Shown here piece after piece: positions 1 to 34,991 of a stretch of 42,657 bases of DNA; position 1 is the first letter of the stretch, and each line of letters begins with the position of its first letter. The stretch covers positions 1 through 42,657 of the forward strand of contig CANGGG010000019.1 of the NCBI GenBank assembly GCA_947453415.1, in the 5' to 3' direction. This DNA is from Bacteroidota bacterium (lineage in GTDB: Bacteria; Bacteroidota; Bacteroidia; UKL13-3). The position numbers were made by a program, and so were the translations under genes. Below the pieces are notes generated by a model. That model made no database searches, was not told the origin of the DNA, and saw only the letters and a list, made by a program, of their open reading frames with translations.

Positions 1-1556
1 CGGGAACTGCAACTATTGGGAATGCTTTAAATATTACAGGAGCAGTAGATGCAGTAGGTGCAATTACATCTGGCGGTAATTTAACTATTAAATCTACAAG
101 TGCTACTGTAAATGGAAGAGTTGCTGGAAGTAATATAAGTGGCAATATCAATGTGGAAAGATTTATTCCTTCTCAAACTACCAGAAGATACCGTTTTTTA
201 TCTAGTCCGGTTGCTACAACAGTAGCAGATTGGAGAGGTGAAATATTTATTACTGGTGGTGGTGTGGATGGTGAATTTAGTTCGGTTGGAACAAATAATG
301 TTAAAACTGCAAATGGCTTAGATTGGACATTGAGTGGTGCAGCATCGATGTATGGTTATACAGAAAACTTAAATTCATTAGGATTAAATACACGTTGGGA
401 GGCTATTACTAATGCTTCAACTTCATTAACTGCTGGTAAAGGTTACCGCGTATTTATAAGAGGTGATAGAAGTAATGCTGGTGTTTTAGACAATTCAGTA
501 AGTACACAAGCAGCAGTTACTATTGTTTCTTCGGGTACTGTTAATTCAGGAACAATTACTTTACCAGCAACCTATAACGGTGGCACTGCAAATGATGGTT
601 GGAATTTAGTGGGTAATCCTTATCCATCAACAATTGATTGGAATGCTGCTTCTGGTTGGACAAAAACCAATGTGAGTGGTACAATTTGGATTTATAAACC
701 AAGTACCAATTCTTATGGAAATTGGGATGGCACTACTGCTACAAATTCAGTTACTCAATACATTTCATCGGGTCAAGCATTTTTTGTAAGAACCACAGGA
801 ACTCCAACATTTACTTGTACTGAGGCGGTAAAAACTGCTACTGCTGGAGCGGGTATTTTTAAAACTACGGAAGAAAACACTTTAAGAATTAGTTTGGCAA
901 AAGATGCTACCAATAGCGATGAAACAGTAATACGTTTCATGGAAGGTAAACAAAATGAATTTAGCGACAATGATGATGTTCGTAAATTTATCAATTCAGA
1001 AGTAAACGTATCAAGTAATTTTGGATTAGACCAATATGCCGCGGTAAATTATTTAGATCCTAAAAATTTAACAAATAAAGTAGTGCCAATCAGTGCTTGG
1101 GTTGACGTAAATGGAAGTTTCAAATTAAACTTTTCAGGTGTGAATTCATTCAATGCCACTCCATATGTAATGTTAAGAGATAAGTATTTAAATAAATTGG
1201 TTGATTTAAGAACAAATGCTACTTATCAATTTGATATTACCAATGATTCAAAAAGCAAAGATGACAATCGTTTTGAAGTGATTTTCTCAGATAAATCAAG
1301 TGGATTAAATGAAAGTAATTCAATGATAAACACCACCCTTTCAGTTTACCCTAACCCAGCAACAGATGTATTGAATATTTCTCTTTCAAATGGAACAACA
1401 ATAGAAACAGTAAATATTTATAATGTATCGGGTAAGTTGGTAAATAATATTAAACTAAACGGAAACCAAATAGACATTAGCCAATTAAACAATGGGGTGT
1501 ATATGGTAGAAGTATTAACACCAAACGGAACTTTTAAAACAAAATTTGTGAAATAG
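1..1556 (+). CDS. T9SS type A cargo protein, C-terminal part (5' end outside window)
   Basis: The reading frame is open from base 3, so this is the 3' part of a longer gene; the GTG at 153 is an internal Val, not a start. The visible protein is Gly/Asn/Thr/Ser-rich. It includes a block that begins VERFIPSQTTRRYRFLSSPV, found in large secreted Bacteroidota surface proteins, and a WNLVGNPYPSTIDW motif. The last ~75 residues (from LSVYPNPATDVLNISLSN to TKFVK) form a type A sorting domain, which directs export through the outer membrane by T9SS and cleavage by a PorU-type sortase. The function of the passenger is unknown. The TAG stop at 1554-1556 is also the first three bases of a heptanucleotide array. 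Confidence 0.85.
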   Translation, partial: GTATIGNALNITGAVDAVGAITSGGNLTIKSTSATVNGRVAGSNISGNINVERFIPSQTTRRYRFLSSPVATTVADWRGEIFITGGGVDGEFSSVGTNNVKTANGLDWTLSGAASMYGYTENLNSLGLNTRWEAITNASTSLTAGKGYRVFIRGDRSNAGVLDNSVSTQAAVTIVSSGTVNSGTITLPATYNGGTANDGWNLVGNPYPSTIDWNAASGWTKTNVSGTIWIYKPSTNSYGNWDGTTATNSVTQYISSGQAFFVRTTGTPTFTCTEAVKTATAGAGIFKTTEENTLRISLAKDATNSDETVIRFMEGKQNEFSDNDDVRKFINSEVNVSSNFGLDQYAAVNYLDPKNLTNKVVPISAWVDVNGSFKLNFSGVNSFNATPYVMLRDKYLNKLVDLRTNATYQFDITNDSKSKDDNRFEVIFSDKSSGLNESNSMINTTLSVYPNPATDVLNISLSNGTTIETVNIYNVSGKLVNNIKLNGNQIDISQLNNGVYMVEVLTPNGTFKTKFVK

Positions 1557-1648
1557 ACGATAGACCATAGTCCATAGTCCATAGTCCATAGACGATGGAC
1601 GATAGAATTCAAATAAACTATGGTCTATGGTCCATCAACCATCAACTA
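1554..1648. repeat. Heptanucleotide array with hairpin, starting at a TAG stop
   Basis: From the stop codon at 1554 there are seven consecutive 7-mers to 1602, such as TAGACGA, TAGACCA and TAGTCCA. After a short interruption four more follow in the opposite sense (1618-1645; CTATGGT, CCATCAA). Bases 1560-1570 and 1618-1628 are exact reverse complements (11 bp), so the transcript could form a hairpin behind the stop. This may act as a weak terminator or mRNA 3'-end stabiliser, but there is no T-tract. Confidence 0.85.
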
Positions 1649-1656
1649 AATAAAAT

Positions 1657-1839: not shown

Positions 1840-2121
1840 TGAGAAATGTGCACTGAGAGATGGGAGATGGGCACTGAGAGAAGAATGATGAAGTATGAAT
1901 GATGAAAATGCACTGAGCGCTGAGCACTGGGAAGTGGGAGATGGGAGATGGGAGATGGGCACTGAGAGAAGAATGATGAAGTATGAATGATGAAAAGGCA
2001 CTGAGCGCTGGGCACTGAGAGATGGGAGATGGGAGATGGGCACTGAGAGATGAAGTATGAAGTATGAAGTATGAATGATGAAGTATGAAAGATGAAAAGG
2101 CACTGTGCACTGAGAGACGGG
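1837..2121. repeat. Long heptanucleotide array, purine-rich on + strand
   Basis: Starting at the TAG stop at 1837, almost every base to 2121 falls into consecutive 7-mers: TAGTGAG first, then combinations of CACTGAG, AGATGGG, TGATGAA and GTATGAA. Register is broken only by two 4-base insertions (AATG, AAGG) and one further AAGG. Higher-order units of about 88 and 81 bp repeat (CACTGAG block at ~1872, ~1960 and ~2041). Long open frames on the minus strand here are artefacts of this composition. Confidence 0.9.
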
Positions 2122-2822: not shown

Positions 2823-5609
2823 ATGCAACAAAAAATAATTTTATCTTTCTTTTTACTACTTATATTTTTAAACACAAAGGCGCAAACATGTGTGGGTGGC
2901 GGAAGTTCCAATATGCCAACCAAATGTTTTGAAATAGAAAGTGTACTAGCCGATGCTTGTAGTTTGGTGGAAGGTGAGGATGAAATGATCAGGTTAAGAA
3001 TTGGTCCTAATCCCATCGCATTAAATTCAATTAATACAGTAGTTTGGCAAACAGTAAACAGTTGGTTGGGTTTTTGTAGTATAACAGGAAGTACATTAAC
3101 CAAAATAAACTCCATTAACAATAGCATTATTGCCGCAGGTAATTGTGGACGATTTATTCCCATTAGTCCGGGAGGAACTTTACCAGCTTATTCCAAAGTG
3201 CTTTTTTTAACCAGTACCGATTTTAGCGCTACCGCCCACGATTTTTCAGGATTAACTGATACCATGTATGTAATTATACAATGTGCGGGAAATACAGGTG
3301 GACATTTTACCAATTCGGGGAACGTACCAAGAACATTAATTATAAAAACAAGCACTTGTGGCGATACCGTAAATTGGAATTCAGCAAATTTAATAGGAGG
3401 GAATGGTGCTGCCATTAATTTTACTTATGCAGGTGTGCCCAGTTATGTAAATTATGGATGTACTTTACCTGTAACGCCTTTTTCCTGCGATGCGGGAACT
3501 ACCAATCCTACTTATTGTAACGGTAGTACTTTAAATTTGGCAGGAACGGTTTCAGGTAGTAATTGTTATGTATGGCGTGCTAGTAATACTGCCACCGGAA
3601 CATTTGCAGATACTACCAATTTACTCACTACTTTTACTATTAGTACAGGTTATGTGGGTGCTGTAAAATTATATTTATTTACCAAATCAAATTGTAGCGT
3701 AAAAATAGATTCAGTGATGTTTAATGCCATTGCTTCTTCAGGAGTTTTAAATGCAGGAAACGATACTTCATTGTGTAATTCCATTGCATTTCATGTAAAT
3801 GCTACGAGTACTGCTACAGGAACTTATGCCTGGACAAAATCGGGTGCAGGAACATTGAATCAAACAAATATTTTAAATCCTATTTATACACCTTCTTTGC
3901 TTGATATAGGAATAGTAAATTTAATTGTTACCCAAACTACTACTTGTGGTGTGTTAAAAGATACCGTAAAAGTTACTTATACCAGTAAAGCCAATGCTAG
4001 TTTTACGCTCAGCGATAGTAATTTTTGTTATAACAATGTTCCTTTAAATATTAACTTAAATCCTACTGTTTCGGGAGGAGTTTTTACAAGTAGCACAGGA
4101 AGTTTTACTGCCAATGTTTTTACTTTTAACGCAGCTGGAAGCTTTACTATTAAGTATAAAATAGGAACTGGAAGTTGTGCCGATTCATTGACAAAACCAA
4201 TCAATGCAAATAACCATGCAAATCCAAATTTCAGTTTAAGTGATACCATAGTTTGTAAAAATGCGCCAGTAGTTGTTTTAACGCCAACTCAAGCTGGTGG
4301 CGTATTTTCGGGAACTAGGGTTATAGCAAACAGATTTACGCCTGATACTGTTGGAATATTTGGCCTAAAATATAAAATTTCAAATGGTGCTTGCATTGAT
4401 TCTTTAAGTAAAAATATAGAAGTTAAAGCCAAGCCAGATCCTTTCTTTATATCGTCAAAATCTACCTTTTGTTTAAATGATGCCAGTACTATATTAATAC
4501 CCAGTACCAGTGGAGGAATATTTTCAGGAACCAATGTTTCGGGTGCTGTTTTTACACCCAGTACTGTTGGTGTTTTTTCTGTAAAATACATTGTATCAAA
4601 TGCATTTTGTGTAGATTCATCTAACCAAAATCTTACAGTTTTTAATAAACCAAATCCTGCATTTACATTGTCTGATACATTGGTTTGTATTGGCTCGCCA
4701 ACTATTACCTTAACACCTACACAAGTTGGAGGCGTTTTTTCTGGAACCAATGTAAGCGCACAAATCTTTTCACCCATTACCACAGGAATATTCCCTATAA
4801 AATATTTAATTTCAAATGCTAATTGTGCCGATTCAGCTTATAAAAACATAGAAGTAAAACCTAAGCCTGATGCTTCATTTACTACTACTGATTCTGTTTT
4901 TTGTGTTAATGATGCCAGGGCAATATTTACGCCAACTGAAGCTGGTGGTGTGTTTACAGGAACCAATGTGATAGGAAATCAATATAACCCTATTACAGTT
5001 GGAAGTTTTATAGTAAAACATGTTATCAATAATGGAACCTGTGCCGACAGTAGTTTTAAAACCATGTTGGTTAATCCTAAACCTACTGCCAACTTTACAT
5101 ATACTCCCGCTAATCCTTATGCTTACGACACTGTTTATTTTACTTTTACTGGTGCCAATGCAACTAAGTATTATTGGAGTTTTGGTGATTTAAAAAATTC
5201 AAGCAGTAATTTGAAAGATCCGTTATTTGAATTTATTGATGTGAATGTATATAGAACATGGTTAAAAGTAAGCAACAATGAAGGTTGTAGCGATTCAATA
5301 TATAAAGATGTATCTGTTTTAAAGAGAGAAACAATTTTTGTGCCCAATGTATTTACTCCTCAAAACACGGATGGACTTGGTTTAAACGATTATTTTACCA
5401 TTCGTTCATATGGAATAAACAATTACCATATGCAAATTTATAACCGTTGGGGAAGTCTTTTGTATGAAACCAATAATATCAATCCAGGTTGGGATGGAAC
5501 TTTTAATGGCGATAGTTGTCCTGATGGTGTTTATTTTTACATCATAGATGCCATTGGATTCAGTAAAAAAACATACCATTTGCACGGAACTGTTACCTTG
5601 TTGAGATAG
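2823..5609 (+). CDS. Secreted adhesin-like protein, PKD domain and CHU_C (T9SS type B) sorting domain
   Basis: 928 residues with an N-terminal signal peptide (residues 1-20, ending NTKAQ). Residues ~24-220 form a Cys-containing lamin-tail-like region with CFEIESVLADACS. From ~395 to ~755 there are five tandem ~71-residue Ig-like repeats. Each has LSDxxxC, a GGVFSGT-type turn, a KYxISN strand and a CxDS motif, giving two Cys per repeat. A PKD-like domain follows (~757-835, YYWSFGD). The last ~90 residues are the gliding-motility-associated CHU_C domain (FVPNVFTPQN, IYNRWGSLLYE, WDGTFNGDSCPDGVYFY), the type B T9SS signal. The likely role is surface adhesion or a structural exoprotein; the ligand is unknown. 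Its TAG stop starts the 5607 repeat array. Confidence 0.88.
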   Translation: MQQKIILSFFLLLIFLNTKAQTCVGGGSSNMPTKCFEIESVLADACSLVEGEDEMIRLRIGPNPIALNSINTVVWQTVNSWLGFCSITGSTLTKINSINNSIIAAGNCGRFIPISPGGTLPAYSKVLFLTSTDFSATAHDFSGLTDTMYVIIQCAGNTGGHFTNSGNVPRTLIIKTSTCGDTVNWNSANLIGGNGAAINFTYAGVPSYVNYGCTLPVTPFSCDAGTTNPTYCNGSTLNLAGTVSGSNCYVWRASNTATGTFADTTNLLTTFTISTGYVGAVKLYLFTKSNCSVKIDSVMFNAIASSGVLNAGNDTSLCNSIAFHVNATSTATGTYAWTKSGAGTLNQTNILNPIYTPSLLDIGIVNLIVTQTTTCGVLKDTVKVTYTSKANASFTLSDSNFCYNNVPLNINLNPTVSGGVFTSSTGSFTANVFTFNAAGSFTIKYKIGTGSCADSLTKPINANNHANPNFSLSDTIVCKNAPVVVLTPTQAGGVFSGTRVIANRFTPDTVGIFGLKYKISNGACIDSLSKNIEVKAKPDPFFISSKSTFCLNDASTILIPSTSGGIFSGTNVSGAVFTPSTVGVFSVKYIVSNAFCVDSSNQNLTVFNKPNPAFTLSDTLVCIGSPTITLTPTQVGGVFSGTNVSAQIFSPITTGIFPIKYLISNANCADSAYKNIEVKPKPDASFTTTDSVFCVNDARAIFTPTEAGGVFTGTNVIGNQYNPITVGSFIVKHVINNGTCADSSFKTMLVNPKPTANFTYTPANPYAYDTVYFTFTGANATKYYWSFGDLKNSSSNLKDPLFEFIDVNVYRTWLKVSNNEGCSDSIYKDVSVLKRETIFVPNVFTPQNTDGLGLNDYFTIRSYGINNYHMQIYNRWGSLLYETNNINPGWDGTFNGDSCPDGVYFYIIDAIGFSKKTYHLHGTVTLLR

Positions 5610-5922
5610 TTGTCAGTTGATAGTTGTTGGGAAACGGGTTACGAGATACGGGTTAGCGGGTTAGCGGGTTACGAGATATTGGTTAGCGGGTTACGAGATT
5701 CGGGTTAGCGGGTTACGAGATACGGGTTAGCGGGTTACGATTTTAAGGGATATCGGGTTACGAGATATGGGTTAACGGGTTACGAGATATTGGTTAACGG
5801 GTTTCGAGATACGGGTTAGCGGGTTACGAGATATTGGTTAACGGGTTTCGAGATACGGGTTAGCGGGTTACGAGATTTGGGTTAGCGGGTTACGAGATTC
5901 GGGTTAGCGGGTTAGCGGGTTA
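5607..5922. repeat. Compound heptanucleotide array, 22-bp higher-order unit
   Basis: Begins at the TAG stop (5607) with TAGTTGT and CAGTTGA. It then passes in the same 7-bp register into a long run of CGGGTTA, GCGGGTTA and CGAGATA. The 7+8+7 pattern gives a 22-bp unit repeated about a dozen times with variants (TTGGTTA, CGAGATT). The GGGTTA core recalls telomere repeats but this is an internal intergenic region. Confidence 0.9.
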
Positions 5923-5931
5923 ATTTTTTTT

Positions 5932-6186
5932 ATACTTCATCCTTTCCCAACTCTCATTTCTCAGTGCTCATCTCCCAATTCTCATCTCTCAGTGCTCACC
6001 TCTCTTTTTTCATTTCATCATTCATCATTTATACTTCATACTTCATCCTTTCCCAACTCTCATTTCTCAGTGCTCATCTCCCAATTCTCATCTCTCAGTG
6101 CTCACCTCTCTTTTTTCATTTCATCATTCATCATTTATACTTCATACTTTATCATTCATACTTCATAATTTATACTTCATACTTAA
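5932..6186. repeat. Pyrimidine-rich heptanucleotide array with 106-bp tandem duplication
   Basis: Built of 7-mers such as CTCAGTG, CTCATCT and ATACTTC, the reverse complements of the words in the 1837 array. 5932-6043 repeats as 6038-6149 with a period of 106 bp (15 x 7 + 1, one 8-mer per unit). The open frame across it on the + strand is low-complexity and not considered a gene. The array ends ~35 bases before the sod start. Confidence 0.9.
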
Positions 6187-6198
6187 AAATTAAAAGAA

Positions 6199-6206
6199 TA
6201 CATTTG
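6199..6206 (+). promoter_or_regulatory. -7 box upstream of sod
   Basis: TACATTTG fits TAnnTTTG and lies 14 bases before the ATG at 6221, directly after the repeat array. No -33 TTTG is apparent, so the array would occupy the upstream promoter region. Confidence 0.45.
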
Positions 6207-6220
6207 TTTTTTTTAATATC

Positions 6221-6955
6221 ATGAAAGTATCACGAAAAACCTTTGTAAAATCAGCGGCTATTTTAGCTGGCGCAACCCTATTAAATACTCAAAAAACTGA
6301 AGCACAAATAACTGCTGCTTTGGTTAATTTGGAAAACGATTTTGCTTTACCACCTCTTGGTTATAGTTACGATGCTTTAGAACCATTTATTGACAGGCAA
6401 ACCATGGAAATTCATTATTCAAAACACCATCAAGCTTATGTAAATAAACTGAATGAAGGCAAAGCTAAAATAACAAGTTGGAACTATAAAACGTTGAATG
6501 ATGTGTTGGAAAATATCAATGATATTCCAAAAGATTTGCAGGGTGCTATTCGCAATAATGCAGGCGGACATTATAATCATTCGTTGTTTTGGTCGTTGTT
6601 AAAAACAAATACATTTCCAAAAGAAAAGGCTTTGAAAATGATCAATGAAAATTTTGATAGTATGGAAAATTTCAAACAATTATTTACCAAAGCTGCCATG
6701 GGAATATTTGGAAGCGGTTGGGTTTGGTTAATTAAACAAGACGGTAAAATGAAAATTATTACTACTCCTAATCAAGACAATCCGTTAATGACAGGAATAG
6801 CAAAAGATTTAGGAACTCCAATCATTGCTTTAGATATTTGGGAACATGCCTATTATTTAAAATACCAGAACAAACGTGCCGATTATGTAACAGCTTTTTG
6901 GAGTATTTTAAATTGGGAGAAAGTGGAAGAGTTGCTATTAGCCTCTAGCCGCTAG
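6221..6955 (+). CDS. sodA: Exported manganese-type superoxide dismutase
   Basis: Converts superoxide to hydrogen peroxide and oxygen. 244 residues, about 40 more than a cytosolic SOD because of an N-terminal export signal. That signal, SRKTFVK then AAILAGATLL, looks like a Tat signal with one Arg replaced by Lys (a Sec reading is also possible). The four metal ligands are present: His65 (HYSKHH), His120 (NHSLFW), and Asp205 and His209 (DIWEH). GSGWVWL followed by NQDNPL is the Mn-type signature (Gln near the metal), although cambialistic use of Fe cannot be excluded. The final codons (ASSR and stop) lie inside a TAGCCNC heptanucleotide array, so the extreme C-terminus is repeat-derived. Confidence 0.93.
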   Translation: MKVSRKTFVKSAAILAGATLLNTQKTEAQITAALVNLENDFALPPLGYSYDALEPFIDRQTMEIHYSKHHQAYVNKLNEGKAKITSWNYKTLNDVLENINDIPKDLQGAIRNNAGGHYNHSLFWSLLKTNTFPKEKALKMINENFDSMENFKQLFTKAAMGIFGSGWVWLIKQDGKMKIITTPNQDNPLMTGIAKDLGTPIIALDIWEHAYYLKYQNKRADYVTAFWSILNWEKVEELLLASSR

Positions 6956-6966
6956 CTGCTAGCCAC
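6939..6966. repeat. Heptanucleotide array spanning the sod stop codon
   Basis: Four 7-mers: TAGCCTC, TAGCCGC, TAGCTGC and TAGCCAC. The first two are translated as the end of SOD; the third begins with the in-frame TAG stop at 6953. Confidence 0.85.
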
Positions 6967-7010
6967 TATCAAAAACTGTTTATTAATAAAGTAAAAGTAT
7001 ATATTTAAAA

Positions 7011-7673
7011 ATGATTCAAAGGCCAGAAGCCAGCAGCCAGCAGCCAGTAGCCCTTTTCCCAAGCACCTATTTACCTAATTTGGTATATGCAAAACATTTG
7101 CTTTTGGCAGATGAAATATTGCTTGAAAAGCATCAAAATTATTTGAAGCAAACGTATGCAAATCGTTGTCATATTTTGGGCGCAAATGGCGTGCAGGTTT
7201 TGAGTATTCCAACTGTTAAAATACATTTTTCAAAACAAGCTTTTGGCGAGGTGAAAATTAACTACGATGAAAGCTGGCAAAAGCAGCATTGGTTGGCGTT
7301 TCAATCGGCTTACGGAAACTCCTCATTTTGGTTTTATTACAAAGATTTTTTTGAGCCATTTTACTTCCAACAAAAGCATGAATATTTGTTTGATTTCAAT
7401 ACCGAATTATTGAAAATAATTTTAAAACTGCTGAAACAAGAAAAACCAATTTCTTACACTGAAAAATACGAATTGGAATATACTAATATTACCGATTTGC
7501 GTAATTATTTTGATGCTAAAAAACGCAATCAACAAGAAGTAATAGCAGGAGAAAATATGAAGAAATATTTACAAGTATTTACTGAAAAATATCCTTTTCA
7601 AGCTAATTTATCAGTACTGGATTTATTAATGAATCAAGGTCCGCAAAGTAAAAATTATTTATTGAATGATTAA
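7011..7673 (+). CDS. WbqC family protein
   Basis: 220 residues resembling the WbqC family (often encoded with surface-polysaccharide genes; reaction unknown). Supporting motifs are the N-terminal FPSTYLPNLVYAKHL, a W-rich middle (SWQKQHWLAFQSAYGNSSFW) and Y/F-rich strands typical of the family. The first ~13 residues (RPEASSQQPVA) are encoded by a CCAGCAG heptanucleotide array, so the native start may have been altered by repeat insertion; the ATG at 7011 is the only good start. It overlaps the next gene by 8 bases, indicating a two-gene operon with mnmH. Confidence 0.8.
   Translation: MIQRPEASSQQPVALFPSTYLPNLVYAKHLLLADEILLEKHQNYLKQTYANRCHILGANGVQVLSIPTVKIHFSKQAFGEVKINYDESWQKQHWLAFQSAYGNSSFWFYYKDFFEPFYFQQKHEYLFDFNTELLKIILKLLKQEKPISYTEKYELEYTNITDLRNYFDAKKRNQQEVIAGENMKKYLQVFTEKYPFQANLSVLDLLMNQGPQSKNYLLND
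7023..7050. repeat. Heptanucleotide array inside the 5' end of the wbqC-like gene
   Basis: CCAGAAG, then CCAGCAG twice, then CCAGTAG, all translated. The related word occurs at 27110-27144 at the end of another gene. Confidence 0.8.
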
Positions 7674-8690: not shown

Positions 8691-8720
8691 TGCCAATTTA
8701 GTTTATTAATAGGAAGTCAT

Positions 8721-8760
8721 TTCGACAAGCTCAATGTCCGCGGTTGTTGAGCTTGTCGAA
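8721..8760. terminator. Perfect 14-bp hairpin downstream of mnmH
   Basis: TTCGACAAGCTCAA (8721-8734) and its exact reverse complement (8747-8760) flank a 12-base loop containing CCGCGG. It could terminate or stabilise the mnmH transcript, but there is no T-tract. It is the perfect version of the element at 2138-2186, so it is probably a dispersed repeat. Confidence 0.55.
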
Positions 8761-8875
8761 ACGAATAACCGAAAGTATAATTTAAAGTAATCAATATTGA
8801 ATTTTATTTGCCAACAAATCTTTTAATTTTGTAATCTTTACAATCATAAAAAACGGACAAATTTTCCAATGGCAA

Positions 8876-11603: not shown

Positions 11604-12859
11604 AACATTTTGTTCAAATAATCGGCAGCATTTTTTATATCGTAATGTGCAAGTAAACTTGGGTTTGCTTGCACATTTTTGTTTTCAATGGCTTGTAAAA
11701 CTTCTTCTATGTTGTTTGCAGCAATGCTTTTACTTTCGTTAATTAAATTAAGTAAACCGGCTTTAGCATAGGCAATAACAGGTGTTCCCACCAAAATACT
11801 TTCATGTGCTACTCGGTTCCAACCTTCATTAATTCCGGTAAGTGCTAATGTAAATTCACTCAAAGCCATTTGTGTTAAATAGTTTTCGAATTTGTCAAAG
11901 TAAACCACTTCGTATGTGGAAGTTTTTGATGCAAAATCTTTGAAGTTTGTACTGAAATAACAATAGTAACCTTGTTCTGTTAGATGCTTTGCAATTTCAA
12001 AAACATCAGCATGGTTTTTAAAACTCCATTGGCCTAAATGAATTTGTTTTTTCTTATTGTTTTTTATGTAGTGCGGATTCACAGTCATGTCGAGCGGAGT
12101 TGCTGTCATGTCGAGCGGAGTCGAGACATTATTTGCCTGTTCTCGATTCCGCTCGAACTGACTGTTTTTAAGCTCGAACTGACTATTAATGTCAAGCTCA
12201 TTTTTTGACTTGTCGAGCGGAGTTGCTGTCATGTCGAGCGGATTCACAGTCATGTCGAGCGGAGTCGAGACATTATTTGACTGTTCTCGACTCCGCTCGA
12301 ACTGACTGTTTTTAAGCTCGAACTGACTGTTTTCAAGTTCGAACTGACTGTTTTTTTGAATAAATTTTTCATAATATTCACCATCAAAAAAGTTTGGAAA
12401 ATAAAAAATAGGAATATTGTTTTTTGTTTTTTCTTTAAAATATTGCACCCAAAAAGGTGCAACTGTTACAATAGAAATATTTTTATTTTTGGTGTTTTTT
12501 AAAACAAAAAACAAAGCTTGATAATATAAATTGAGCCAAAAAGATTTCCCGTCATTTTTATCAAAATAATGTAAAACAATATAAACTTTGTTTTGGGTAA
12601 ATGCATTGCGAAGCACAGCAAATAAAGCAACTCTGGCTACTACAATATTATAATTTGCATTGGCGGTTAAGCCTAACAAAAATAGTTTTATATAAGCAAA
12701 TGGATTGGTGTAAAAACGATTTTTTCTGTCGATTTCTAACGTTACATGTTCTCCTTTTTGATTTAAAAATTGTTGCAATTGTTCCGCAAAAAAAAGCTCG
12801 TGTTTGTAGCCACCAGTTTCATATTTACCATAAGAAATATATTTAATAAACTTCTTCAA
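11600..12859 (-). CDS. Glycosyltransferase (GT-B type) with repeat-derived insertion
   Basis: 419 residues. The N-terminal domain starts GKYETGGYKHELF (the GGY loop typical of family 4-like transferases). The C-terminal domain has KQIHLGQWSFKNHADVFEIA and the donor-binding motif GWNRVAHESILVGTPVIAYA, where the Glu is expected to contact the nucleotide sugar. It probably acts in envelope glycan synthesis. Residues ~167-263 are low-complexity repeats (NSQFELK, STPLDMT, ATPLDMT) encoded by intergenic-type repeat DNA and lying between the two domains. The start appears to be TTG at 12859, since there is no upstream ATG before a stop. The last 4 bases overlap the convergent toxin gene. Activity with the insertion is uncertain. 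Confidence 0.8.
   Translation of the reverse strand: MKKFIKYISYGKYETGGYKHELFFAEQLQQFLNQKGEHVTLEIDRKNRFYTNPFAYIKLFLLGLTANANYNIVVARVALFAVLRNAFTQNKVYIVLHYFDKNDGKSFWLNLYYQALFFVLKNTKNKNISIVTVAPFWVQYFKEKTKNNIPIFYFPNFFDGEYYEKFIQKNSQFELENSQFELKNSQFERSREQSNNVSTPLDMTVNPLDMTATPLDKSKNELDINSQFELKNSQFERNREQANNVSTPLDMTATPLDMTVNPHYIKNNKKKQIHLGQWSFKNHADVFEIAKHLTEQGYYCYFSTNFKDFASKTSTYEVVYFDKFENYLTQMALSEFTLALTGINEGWNRVAHESILVGTPVIAYAKAGLLNLINESKSIAANNIEEVLQAIENKNVQANPSLLAHYDIKNAADYLNKMF
12075..12356. repeat. Intergenic repeat family inserted in frame within a coding sequence
   Basis: About 280 bp of 7-mer-based words (GTCATGT, CGAGCGG, AGTCGAG, CGAACTG, ACTGTTT) form two large related blocks. 25 bases at 12283-12307 are identical to the intergenic copy at 2333-2357. 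Three 7-mers make 21 bp, seven codons, which explains the 7-residue protein period NSQFELK. The reading frame is kept throughout. Confidence 0.88.
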
Positions 12860-33499: not shown

Positions 33500-33868
33500 T
33501 TAATAGGTTGTATAAGGATAAAATGCATCTTCAAAATGCAAAATTTCTGTCTCTGTTTTATATTTAATAATGGCAATAATATCAAACCTGATTTCACAAG
33601 TTAATTGATTGCTTTCTTGGTATAATAAGGCCGCTTCCACCAATGTTTTTTGTTTGGCTTTACTCACTGCATTTTCAGGATTTACTAAATTACTATTCCT
33701 GGTTTTTACCTCTACTATTACCAAACAGTTTTGGTGCTTTGCAATGATATCGACTTCGGTTTTATTTTGTCTGAAATTTCGTTCTAAAATTTCAAAACCT
33801 TTATTTAACAAAAAGTCACAAGCCAATTGCTCTCCAATTTCACCTGTGACTTTATTGTTATTCTTCAT
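33500..33868 (-). CDS. yraN: YraN family (UPF0102) endonuclease-like protein
   Basis: 122 residues. GEIGEQLACDFLLNKGFEIL, NKTEVDIIAKHQNCLVIVEVKTRN (the D-ExK nuclease-like core) and AVSKAKQKTLVEAA are the family signatures. Function undetermined; the fold resembles Holliday-junction resolvases. First gene of the operon with mvaB. The fbp-derived repeat array ends just before its start. Confidence 0.9.
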   Translation of the reverse strand: MKNNNKVTGEIGEQLACDFLLNKGFEILERNFRQNKTEVDIIAKHQNCLVIVEVKTRNSNLVNPENAVSKAKQKTLVEAALLYQESNQLTCEIRFDIIAIIKYKTETEILHFEDAFYPYTTY

Positions 33869-33873
33869 TTTTT

Positions 33874-33992
33874 TTTAGTTTTTAGTACTTAGTTTTTAGT
33901 ACTTAGTACTTAGTTCTTAGTTGTTTTTATCAATTATTGTCTATGGTCCATCGTCTATAGTCCATCAACTATCAACTGACAACTATCAACTA
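33874..33992. repeat. Uninterrupted 17-unit heptanucleotide array from the fbp stop codon
   Basis: Read on the minus strand from the TAG stop at 33992, 119 bases divide into 17 exact 7-mers with no break. They change family along the way: TAGTTGA/CAGTTGA, then TGGACTA/TAGACGA, then TAATTGA and TAAAAAC, then AACTAAG/TACTAAA. It fills the entire gap between fbp and yraN (6 bases from the yraN start). Confidence 0.93.
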
Positions 33993-34991
33993 TTTATTCA
34001 TAAACTCAAGCACTTTATTCACCATGTTTTTTGATCCCATAATAATTGGAACACGTTGGTGAATTTTAGTTGGTTCAACATCTAATATGCGCATGGTACT
34101 TGTAGTTGCTAATCCTCCAGCTTGTTCCGCAATATAACTCATTGGAATTCCTTCGAACAATAAACGTAATTTACCATTTGGACTCTTTGCAGTAGGCGGA
34201 TAAATAAACACACCACCTTTTAATAAATTGCGGTGAAAATCGGCCACCATTGAACCAATATAACGAGAAGTATAAGGCCTGTCGGTAGTTTTGTCTTCTT
34301 CTTTTACCCAAGTTAAATAATCTTTTATTCCTTGTGGAAATTCAGCAGCATTACCTTCATTGATGGAATAAATTTTACCATTGTCAGGCGATTTAATATT
34401 GGCATGACTTAAGCAAAATTCACCAATACTAGGATCTAAGGTAAAAGCATTTACACCATTTCCAGTACTAAATACCAACATGGTAGATGTGCCATATAGC
34501 ACGTAACCAGCAGCTACTAATTTATTTCCAGCTTGCAATACATCGGCTTCAGTTGGTTCAGTACCCACTTCAGTTACTCTTTTGTAAATGGAGAAAATAG
34601 TTCCAATAGATACATTCACATCAATATTAGAAGAACCATCTAATGGGTCCATGCAAATTACATATTTTCCATTTTTTGAAAATGTTCCTTTTAAAGGAAT
34701 AATTCCTTCATTTTCTTCACTTGCTATAACACATACTTCACCACCTTTGCTGAATGTAGCAATGAAAGTTTCGTTACCAATAATGTCTAATTTTTTTACA
34801 TCTTCATCTTGCACATTTACACTTCCATGGTCACCTAAAATATTGGTTAAGCCAGCCTTATTTACCTCTCTACTTATAATTTTTGATGCAATTCCAATGT
34901 CGCGTAACAAGCGTGAAAGCTCTCCTTTTGCGTAAGGGAAATCTTGTTGTTTTTCTATAACAAATTGACCAAGGGTAGTAAAATTTTCCAT
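33990..34991 (-). CDS. fbp: Class 1 fructose-1,6-bisphosphatase
   Basis: Gluconeogenic hydrolysis of fructose-1,6-bisphosphate. 333 residues, normal for class 1. MDPLDGSSNIDVNVSIGTIFSIY is the metal-binding core, YVLYGTSTMLVFSTGNGV, RYIGSMVADFHRNLLKGGVF and EGIPMSYIAEQAGGLAT are typical. The N-terminal TLGQFVIEKQQDFPYAKGELS matches. Divergent from the DUF2520 gene. Its TAG stop is part of the repeat array that follows. Confidence 0.95.
   Translation of the reverse strand: MENFTTLGQFVIEKQQDFPYAKGELSRLLRDIGIASKIISREVNKAGLTNILGDHGSVNVQDEDVKKLDIIGNETFIATFSKGGEVCVIASEENEGIIPLKGTFSKNGKYVICMDPLDGSSNIDVNVSIGTIFSIYKRVTEVGTEPTEADVLQAGNKLVAAGYVLYGTSTMLVFSTGNGVNAFTLDPSIGEFCLSHANIKSPDNGKIYSINEGNAAEFPQGIKDYLTWVKEEDKTTDRPYTSRYIGSMVADFHRNLLKGGVFIYPPTAKSPNGKLRLLFEGIPMSYIAEQAGGLATTSTMRILDVEPTKIHQRVPIIMGSKNMVNKVLEFMNK

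Follow-up and report, generated by a model that had tools for sequence, protein, structure and literature searches.

Does a long tandem repeat that stops a few bases short of a promoter control the gene behind it, or is it merely tolerated there? The question is raised by a 42,657-nt contig of a Bacteroidota bacterium (assembly GCA_947453415.1, contig CANGGG010000019.1; the whole stretch is called the window below), in which the gap upstream of sod, encoding an Fe/Mn superoxide dismutase, is filled with repeats at 5607-6186. A first-pass annotation had described a double array with 22-bp and 106-bp units at this place and had suggested that its length could alter sod expression. We show here that the sod array is a member of a dispersed class of intergenic arrays that have a period of 7 or 8 and draw on a small set of words. 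Judging from sequence comparisons, the sod stretch is probably a composite of such arrays, grown by block duplication together with copying between arrays and playing little role at sod.

The sod array belongs to a dispersed class of intergenic arrays

The gap between the stop codon of the preceding type IX secretion system (T9SS) type B gene and the sod start codon measures 611 nt and holds three repeat blocks (Table 1). Both parts of the double array were recovered by Tandem Repeats Finder, which reported periods of 22, 44 and 66 in 5634-5914 and a period of 106 (99% matches) at 5932-6153, and by lag identity, which reached 0.77 at lag 22 in the GGGTTA part and 0.62 at lag 7 in the pyrimidine-rich part, as compared with maxima of 0.41 and 0.48, respectively, in 300 dinucleotide shuffles. 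The 22-bp unit, first read as 7+8+7, parses mostly as 7+7+8, a rotation of that form. The 106-bp copy, described as nearly perfect, is in fact exact: 112 consecutive positions (5932 to 6043) match at lag 106, so that the duplicated tract spans 5932-6149. Within the GGGTTA part, an exact 57-nt run (5776-5832) recurs at lag 44. These exact duplications of 106 and 44 bp, together with gap lengths that differ among relatives (see below), support the recent expansion proposed earlier. The heptads at 5610-5630, a third type in the gap, had escaped the first-pass annotation, as had the heptad arms at the 3' end of sod.

The pyrimidine-rich array had also been said to use the reverse-complement vocabulary of 1837-2121. 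This holds at the level of 14-mers, nine of which are common to the two arrays in reverse complement (shuffle mean 0.025, maximum 2), with no 14-mer shared in the direct orientation; for 7-mers, the excess lies within the shuffle range (34 shared words; mean 21, maximum 40). At gathering scores, the window matched no Rfam family. The genome assembly is a draft in 107 contigs, and short-read assembly can shorten repeats; the 106-bp duplication could exceed its assembled copy number. Moreover, some arrays (C95, C104) reach or approach the end of a contig, and the figures for array content are therefore probably too low.

Arrays of this kind are spread over the genome. In a sample of 825,990 bases of this genome (G000), consisting of the window and 40 further stretches and non-random in that C29 and C95 were picked for matching the sod array, arrays take up 1629 noncoding bases at lag 7, 1172 at its harmonic, lag 14, and 881 at lag 8, whereas the other lags (4-6, 9-13 and 15) gave 0-195 bases (none at lags 5, 11 and 13, 4 at lag 6 and the maximum of 195 at lag 12). 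Noncoding DNA makes up only 12% of the sample, yet it holds the 1629 lag-7 bases as compared with 773 in called open reading frames. At a looser cut-off, 132 noncoding arrays were recognised. The sod array matches 53 places in this genome, its own among them, with 40 of the 92 first-look candidates scored. The words fall into families to which we gave letters of convenience: AB (CTAT-SRW, CTAACAA), C (TTCAT-nn), D (CTCA-nnn), E (CTRGC-NN) and F (GGGTTA/GAGATA), besides AT-rich octads. The E-type pattern alone matches nine times in the whole window (0.07 expected); since CTAGC is partly palindromic, a few E units enter such counts twice, once per strand.

Much the same lexicon is found in relatives. 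The D composite TCTCAGTGCYCAYYTC, taken from this genome, where it has 21 sites, occurs in 7 of the 10 genomes of the genus and in 1 of 107 other relatives. Three consecutive CTRGCNN units were found in 33 of 117 genomes: all 10 of the genus, 16 of 19 in g105, a genus of the same family whose stretches examined for arrays were those picked for these matches, 4 of 35 in the rest of the family and 3 of 53 in the rest of the class. The reversed control gave no match in either genus and some matches in five other genomes of the class. Three consecutive TTCATAM units occur in 20 of 117 genomes, 8 of these in the genus, and three consecutive CTATSRW units in 15 of 198 genomes across the phylum. The reversed controls for these two patterns match many genomes and are not independent, the reversed words being rotations of family words. 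Since reversed words rotate into related words and other genomes use other heptamers, the two counts show only that heptamer arrays are widespread.

Several related arrays were seen in passing. Octad arrays (GTTGATTT, AGAGATTT) of up to 334 bp (L127:15386-15444, L149:1562-1895, L141:9406-9541) are the period-8 counterpart of the heptad arrays. L198 (G000:C104) and L196 (G000:C95) are short, array-rich contigs that end in or beside arrays, and within C104 a composite of arrays and other dispersed repeats is present at least twice. In the relative G006, L207 (G006:C16:26500-30800) contains an ~83-bp minisatellite whose unit is built from D, C and E heptad words.

Table 1. Coordinates in the window of the sod upstream gap, its neighbours and related arrays
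Feature	Position	Strand	Remarks
T9SS type B sorting domain protein gene, 928 aa	2823..5609	+	PF13585 CHU_C, TIGR04131
AB-type heptads TTGTCAG TTGATAG TTGTTGG	5610..5630	+	reverse complement of CTATCAA/CTGACAA words
F-type array GGGTTAC-GAGATAC-GGGTTAGC, 7+7+8 = 22 bp	5634..5921	+	G+C 50% (window 31%)
44-bp block duplication within F array	5776..5876	+	exact lag-44 run of 57
C/D-type array, TTCAT-nn and CTCA-nnn heptads	5928..6185	+	76% pyrimidine
Exact tandem duplication, 106-bp unit (15 x 7 + 1)	5932..6149	+	
TACATTTG, -7-like box	6199..6206	+	fits TAnnTTTG
sod, Fe/Mn superoxide dismutase, N-terminal leader	6221..6955	+	PF00081, PF02777; last codons inside heptad arm
E-type arm CTRGC-NN, 3' end of sod	6945..6963	+	
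Inverted E-type arm, first codons of WbqC-like gene	7022..7047	-	
AB-type inverted arrays, same class elsewhere in window	1549..1649	.	1540-1660 folds with z -4.4
C/D-type array, reverse complement of 5928-6185 vocabulary	1846..2099	-	

Other repeats were also observed in the window. A gene for a 60-aa peptide with a PID-CTERM sorting domain (1657-1839) matches at DNA level at least nine separate places in four relatives and looks like a member of a multi-copy gene family. Dispersed TGTCGAGCGGAGTCACAGTCA units and GTTCTCGACTCCGCTCGAACTGACTAA-type sequence, at 12066-12355 and 2122-2350, recur widely, either in relatives or within this genome, and a repeat of 50-70 bp at 8695-8767 is found at many unlinked places in G004, G005, G007 and G008.

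The sod promoter and its upstream gap in relatives

As first described, the array (end at 6186) stops 12 bases before TACATTTG, which fits TAnnTTTG, the sequence we take to be the Bacteroidota -7 box consensus. A leadered sod is present in 8 of the 10 genus genomes, this one included (completeness of the remaining two, 65% and 88%), and all eight orthologues retain TACATT[T/C]G. The closest named record is contig CAIUQQ010000114.1 of an uncultured Bacteroidetes metagenome-assembled genome, whose sod is 91% identical. The gap itself differs among relatives. G002 and G006 share the upstream gene and have a gap of ~64 nt (looser values of 91 and 136, respectively, came from trimmed anchors) with no array. 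In G005 and G008, also with the same upstream gene, the gap is estimated at ~479 and ~275 nt, respectively, and the arrays are shorter and differently composed, running in the order TTGATAG words, short GGGTTA-like stretch, TTTCGAGCGAAGTCGAGAA palindrome and C/D words; E words are also present in the G005 gap. In G001, G003 and G009, which have a different upstream gene, no array was seen by eye. Because the gap differs among these relatives and the box is constant, the array must have been gained or lost within the genus while the box persisted.

Contingency loci are phase-variable simple sequence repeats (SSRs) in which a tandem repeat lies next to a promoter, and the sod array resembles them in adjoining one. 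A regulator of this kind, whereby array length changes sod transcription, would fit the short distance to the -7-like box as well as the exact duplications, which show that length does change. Nevertheless, we consider it distinctly improbable. Two relatives with the same upstream gene, G002 and G006, have kept the box without the array, and gaps of 611, ~479 and ~275 nt stand alongside an unchanged box. No TTG, as in the -33 element consensus, occurs in the 30 bases before the box; a recognisable -33 element, the spacing of which might be set by the array, is therefore lacking. Unlike contingency loci, the array alters neither a reading frame nor a recognisable promoter spacer, and length differences were seen between species only. 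Read as RNA, 5607-6186 folds worse than all 20 of 20 shuffles (z +2.65). Furthermore, the array class is thinner in divergent, promoter-only gaps of the genome sample (13 of 123 arrays, 22.7 expected, one-sided P 0.013, once 9 of the 132 arrays with just one neighbouring gene in the stretch had been dropped), a deficit that points to a spacer as well. The proposed influence of array length on sod expression is thus unsupported. Most likely, the array is a spacer that is tolerated because it leaves the core promoter free. As relatives lack it and yet keep the box, it appears to be unnecessary for the sod promoter.

Two further candidates were rejected at this locus. A structured RNA at sod is disfavoured by the folding result, and a G-quadruplex in the GGGTTA part by the absence from 5607-6186 of four G3 tracts with loops of 1-7 nt; loops of up to 12 nt would permit five.

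Turnover, word structure and paired arms

In 20 aligned blocks with G004, G005, G007 and G008 (overlapping for W, L141, L010 and L136), substitutions amount to 495/2069 (0.239) in arrays, 1816/17258 (0.105) in other noncoding DNA and 7159/96127 (0.075) in coding DNA, and indels per kb to 24, 5.9 and 0.24, respectively, the array values being upper estimates. On average, the array class evolves faster than other noncoding DNA.

Words consist of a fixed core and a variable tail, in arrays that mix units of 7 and 8. Among orthologous pairs of E arrays, 5 of 13 are preserved in length, with changes only at R (5/16) and NN (9/22), none at the four fixed core positions (0/64) and 49/1771 in the flanks; this pattern is suggestive only, since a single gap supplies four of the five pairs, the other pair shows no change and the G000 search itself demanded the core. 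Adjacent E units, taken over seven genome groups, are identical in 10 of 126 cases, compared with 14.6 expected from independent draws. The opposite holds for the E words of G244 (7 of 34, 3.8 expected), probably on account of one homogeneous CTAGCAA array. In G000, where counts are small, adjacent units are identical in 6 of 20 cases for CTAT (5.1 expected), 9 of 27 for TTCA (7.8), 1 of 10 for CTCA (2.8) and 5 of 6 for CATA words (2.8); the first three resemble the E words in this respect, and the CATA words do not. Near-identical neighbours do occur in the 22-bp and 44-bp units of the sod array.

Among the 30 gaps with at least two recognised arms, the first and last arm belong to the same family in inverted orientation in 9, as compared with 3.2 on shuffling of the partners (a value of 9 was attained in 0.15% of 2000 shuffles), and in direct orientation likewise in 9 (1.9 expected), some direct pairs probably being the two ends of one long array. 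Since inverted and direct pairs both exceed the shuffles, family matching holds for either orientation. The E/E pairs, four in number, all read CTRGC...GCYAG. At two orthologous gaps, the E/E pair of this genome stands against an AB/AB pair in relatives. At L140:2395-2494, AB/AB was found in G007 by regular expression, while in G004 one arm was scored and the other is visible in the alignment and the fold. In the gap after sod (6955-7011), AB/AB was found in G005, while in G008 one arm was scored and the other recognised by eye; in G002, which is more distant, this gap contains an E arm. L142:8187-8301 has E/E here versus a single TTTTGAA-type array in G007, and at L141:15096-15219 the two sides use different AB words (ACG-ATAG in this genome, TTG-ATAG in G004 and G007). 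These swaps come from a small number of loci in draft genomes. Overall, 102 pairs were compared; among the 35 orthologous rows with arms, which contain duplicates (L012 and L030 are the same G005 locus), the family is shared in 14 and unshared in 6, and arms are present only here in 12 and only in the other species in 3.

The arms in the gap after sod extend into genes: within 6935-7060, array words supply the last codons of sod (LLLASSR) and the opening ones of the WbqC-like gene (RPEASSQQPVA). In G005 and G008, the orthologous arms use another word family.

Folding was scored for 8 of 10 sequences, without L142 and the post-sod gap of G008. The AB pairs give hairpins (z -3.8 to -7.6, and -2.7 in a longer stretch of G005), and E pairs fold weakly (z -0.7, -1.2 and -1.6). 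Strong folding was also obtained for the array at 1540-1660 (Table 1) and for 33853-33998 on the minus strand (z -5.4).

Origin of the arrays and comparison with known repeats

How could one lexicon be maintained at so many places? The simplest account would be a slipped-strand microsatellite, a heptamer that expands in place, with words common to different loci only by chance or composition. According to Mrazek (2007), as cited in MacGregor (2015, PMC4679880), heptamers outnumber the other classes of long SSR in most of the surveyed genomes, perhaps via polymerase contact, and polymerase slippage has been proposed. Block duplications do exist, and the CATA words of G000 and the E words of G244 look homogenised. 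Slippage alone, however, should make neighbours alike, and adjacent CTRGC-NN units are no more alike than random draws; moreover, multi-word blocks recur at unlinked loci and the composite TCTCAGTGCYCAYYTC is almost confined to the genus. We therefore regard a microsatellite of this sort as unlikely. Still less can be said for the arrays as structured RNAs or terminators, that is, hairpins at gene ends. The strongly folding arrays of the window, the excess of inverted same-family arms and the AB-type orthologue hairpins would all agree with such a role, but the sod upstream array folds worse than its shuffles, E-type pairs fold weakly and direct same-family pairs are in excess as well, making this explanation very improbable indeed.

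The evidence is more readily accommodated by block duplication combined with copying between arrays. At sod, blocks of several units (44 bp and 106 bp) are directly seen to have been duplicated in tandem, a local process that lengthens an array in place. In addition, the shared composites and the genus-wide lexicon suggest that blocks may be copied between loci by ectopic conversion or template switching seeded by shared words. Copying and local duplication together would keep one lexicon over many loci while individual loci turn over. The sod array would then be no switch but a near-neutral spacer, kept from intruding on the core promoter by selection on that promoter. It is conceivable, though rather doubtful, that the arrays, far from being passive microsatellites, result from a process in which heptad blocks are copied or rewritten in register from one intergenic site to another, so that between close relatives the layout of an inverted pair is kept and its word family swapped wholesale, and the CTRGC-NN core is kept and its 2-nt tail left free.

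Several observations weigh against spread by duplication and copying. No donor-recipient pair was identified. Turnover is uneven, as the C/D array at L141:14047-14308 is identical in three species with flanks about 97% identical, while the adjoining E array differs; the array rates are inflated by unreliable alignments inside arrays; and array indels of at least 4 nt are not clearly multiples of 7 (7/38). The sharing of blocks, which speaks for copying (303 16-mers shared by 108 array regions, versus 24.6, maximum 46, after permutation of heptads within arrays), is overstated in that permutation at arbitrary phase breaks words and 2 of the 108 regions were added by hand. Finally, simple words such as TTCATAC could partly originate independently, and the C pattern is also found once each in distant genomes.

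As to the agent, a reverse transcriptase encoded in this genome is unlikely. RVT_1 (PF00078) has no match in G000 at E 0.001 and is present in 2 of the 10 genus genomes; an origin from a retroelement, a diversity-generating retroelement or a reverse transcriptase was rejected on the absence of this domain from the assembly. The Y1 transposase family PF01797 is present in all 10 genus genomes, with 2 to 15 matches each. When set against Y1 number, array richness depends on how it is measured: G002 has 15 Y1 matches, 0 noncoding lag-7 bases in 100 kb and 80 matches to three consecutive CTRGCNN units.

Intergenic heptamer repeats are known as a kind. The short tandemly repeated repetitive (STRR) sequences of cyanobacteria are likewise tandem heptamer families; they belong to another phylum, and we liken them to the present arrays by kind and not by word set. 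Tandem units of 7 bp (lag 7 leads in the pyrimidine part) at dispersed, mainly noncoding loci place these arrays among intergenic heptanucleotide repeats of the long SSR (LSSR) or STRR-like type; Calothrix heptanucleotides are cited in the introduction of Rehm (2015, PMC4692102). In MacGregor (2015), TAACTGA and other heptamer direct repeats are described between genes in Gramella, Aequorivita and Elizabethkingia, and in three cases a close relative's gap is shorter and without obvious repeats. The likeness to our arrays lies in the 7-bp units, the intergenic location and the relatives without repeats. Pairs of TAACTGA were found neither in the window nor in any of 329 fetched loci, however, and, compared with the TAACTGA repeats as described there, the present arrays have several word families, a fixed core with variable tail and mixed units of 7 and 8. 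The G-rich GGGNATC heptamers of Xanthomonas and Nostoc, for which PMC4692102 reports G-quadruplex formation and fewer copies between divergent genes, are similarly dispersed, intergenic and under-represented between divergent genes, but the window contains no GGGNATC pair and the sod array no strict-loop G-quadruplex. Borg tandem repeats, as described in PMC9879509, are rapidly evolving and many are intergenic, as here; their units are near-perfect, with genic ones in multiples of 3, whereas ours are degenerate with period 7 or 8. What distinguishes the present arrays are the core/tail words, the low likeness of neighbouring CTRGC-NN units and the paired changes of word family. A literature search covering few subscription journals found no description of this word set, of the fixed core with variable tail, of the mixing of 7 and 8 or of matched swaps.

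The lesson from sod is that a conspicuous repeat beside a promoter need not regulate that promoter. For the class as a whole, slippage alone does not predict a fixed core with a variable tail, unlike neighbours or the matched exchange of words on the two arms of a pair. A genus with many arrays, a common lexicon and alignable relatives offers a natural experiment on why heptamers prevail among the long repeats of prokaryotes.

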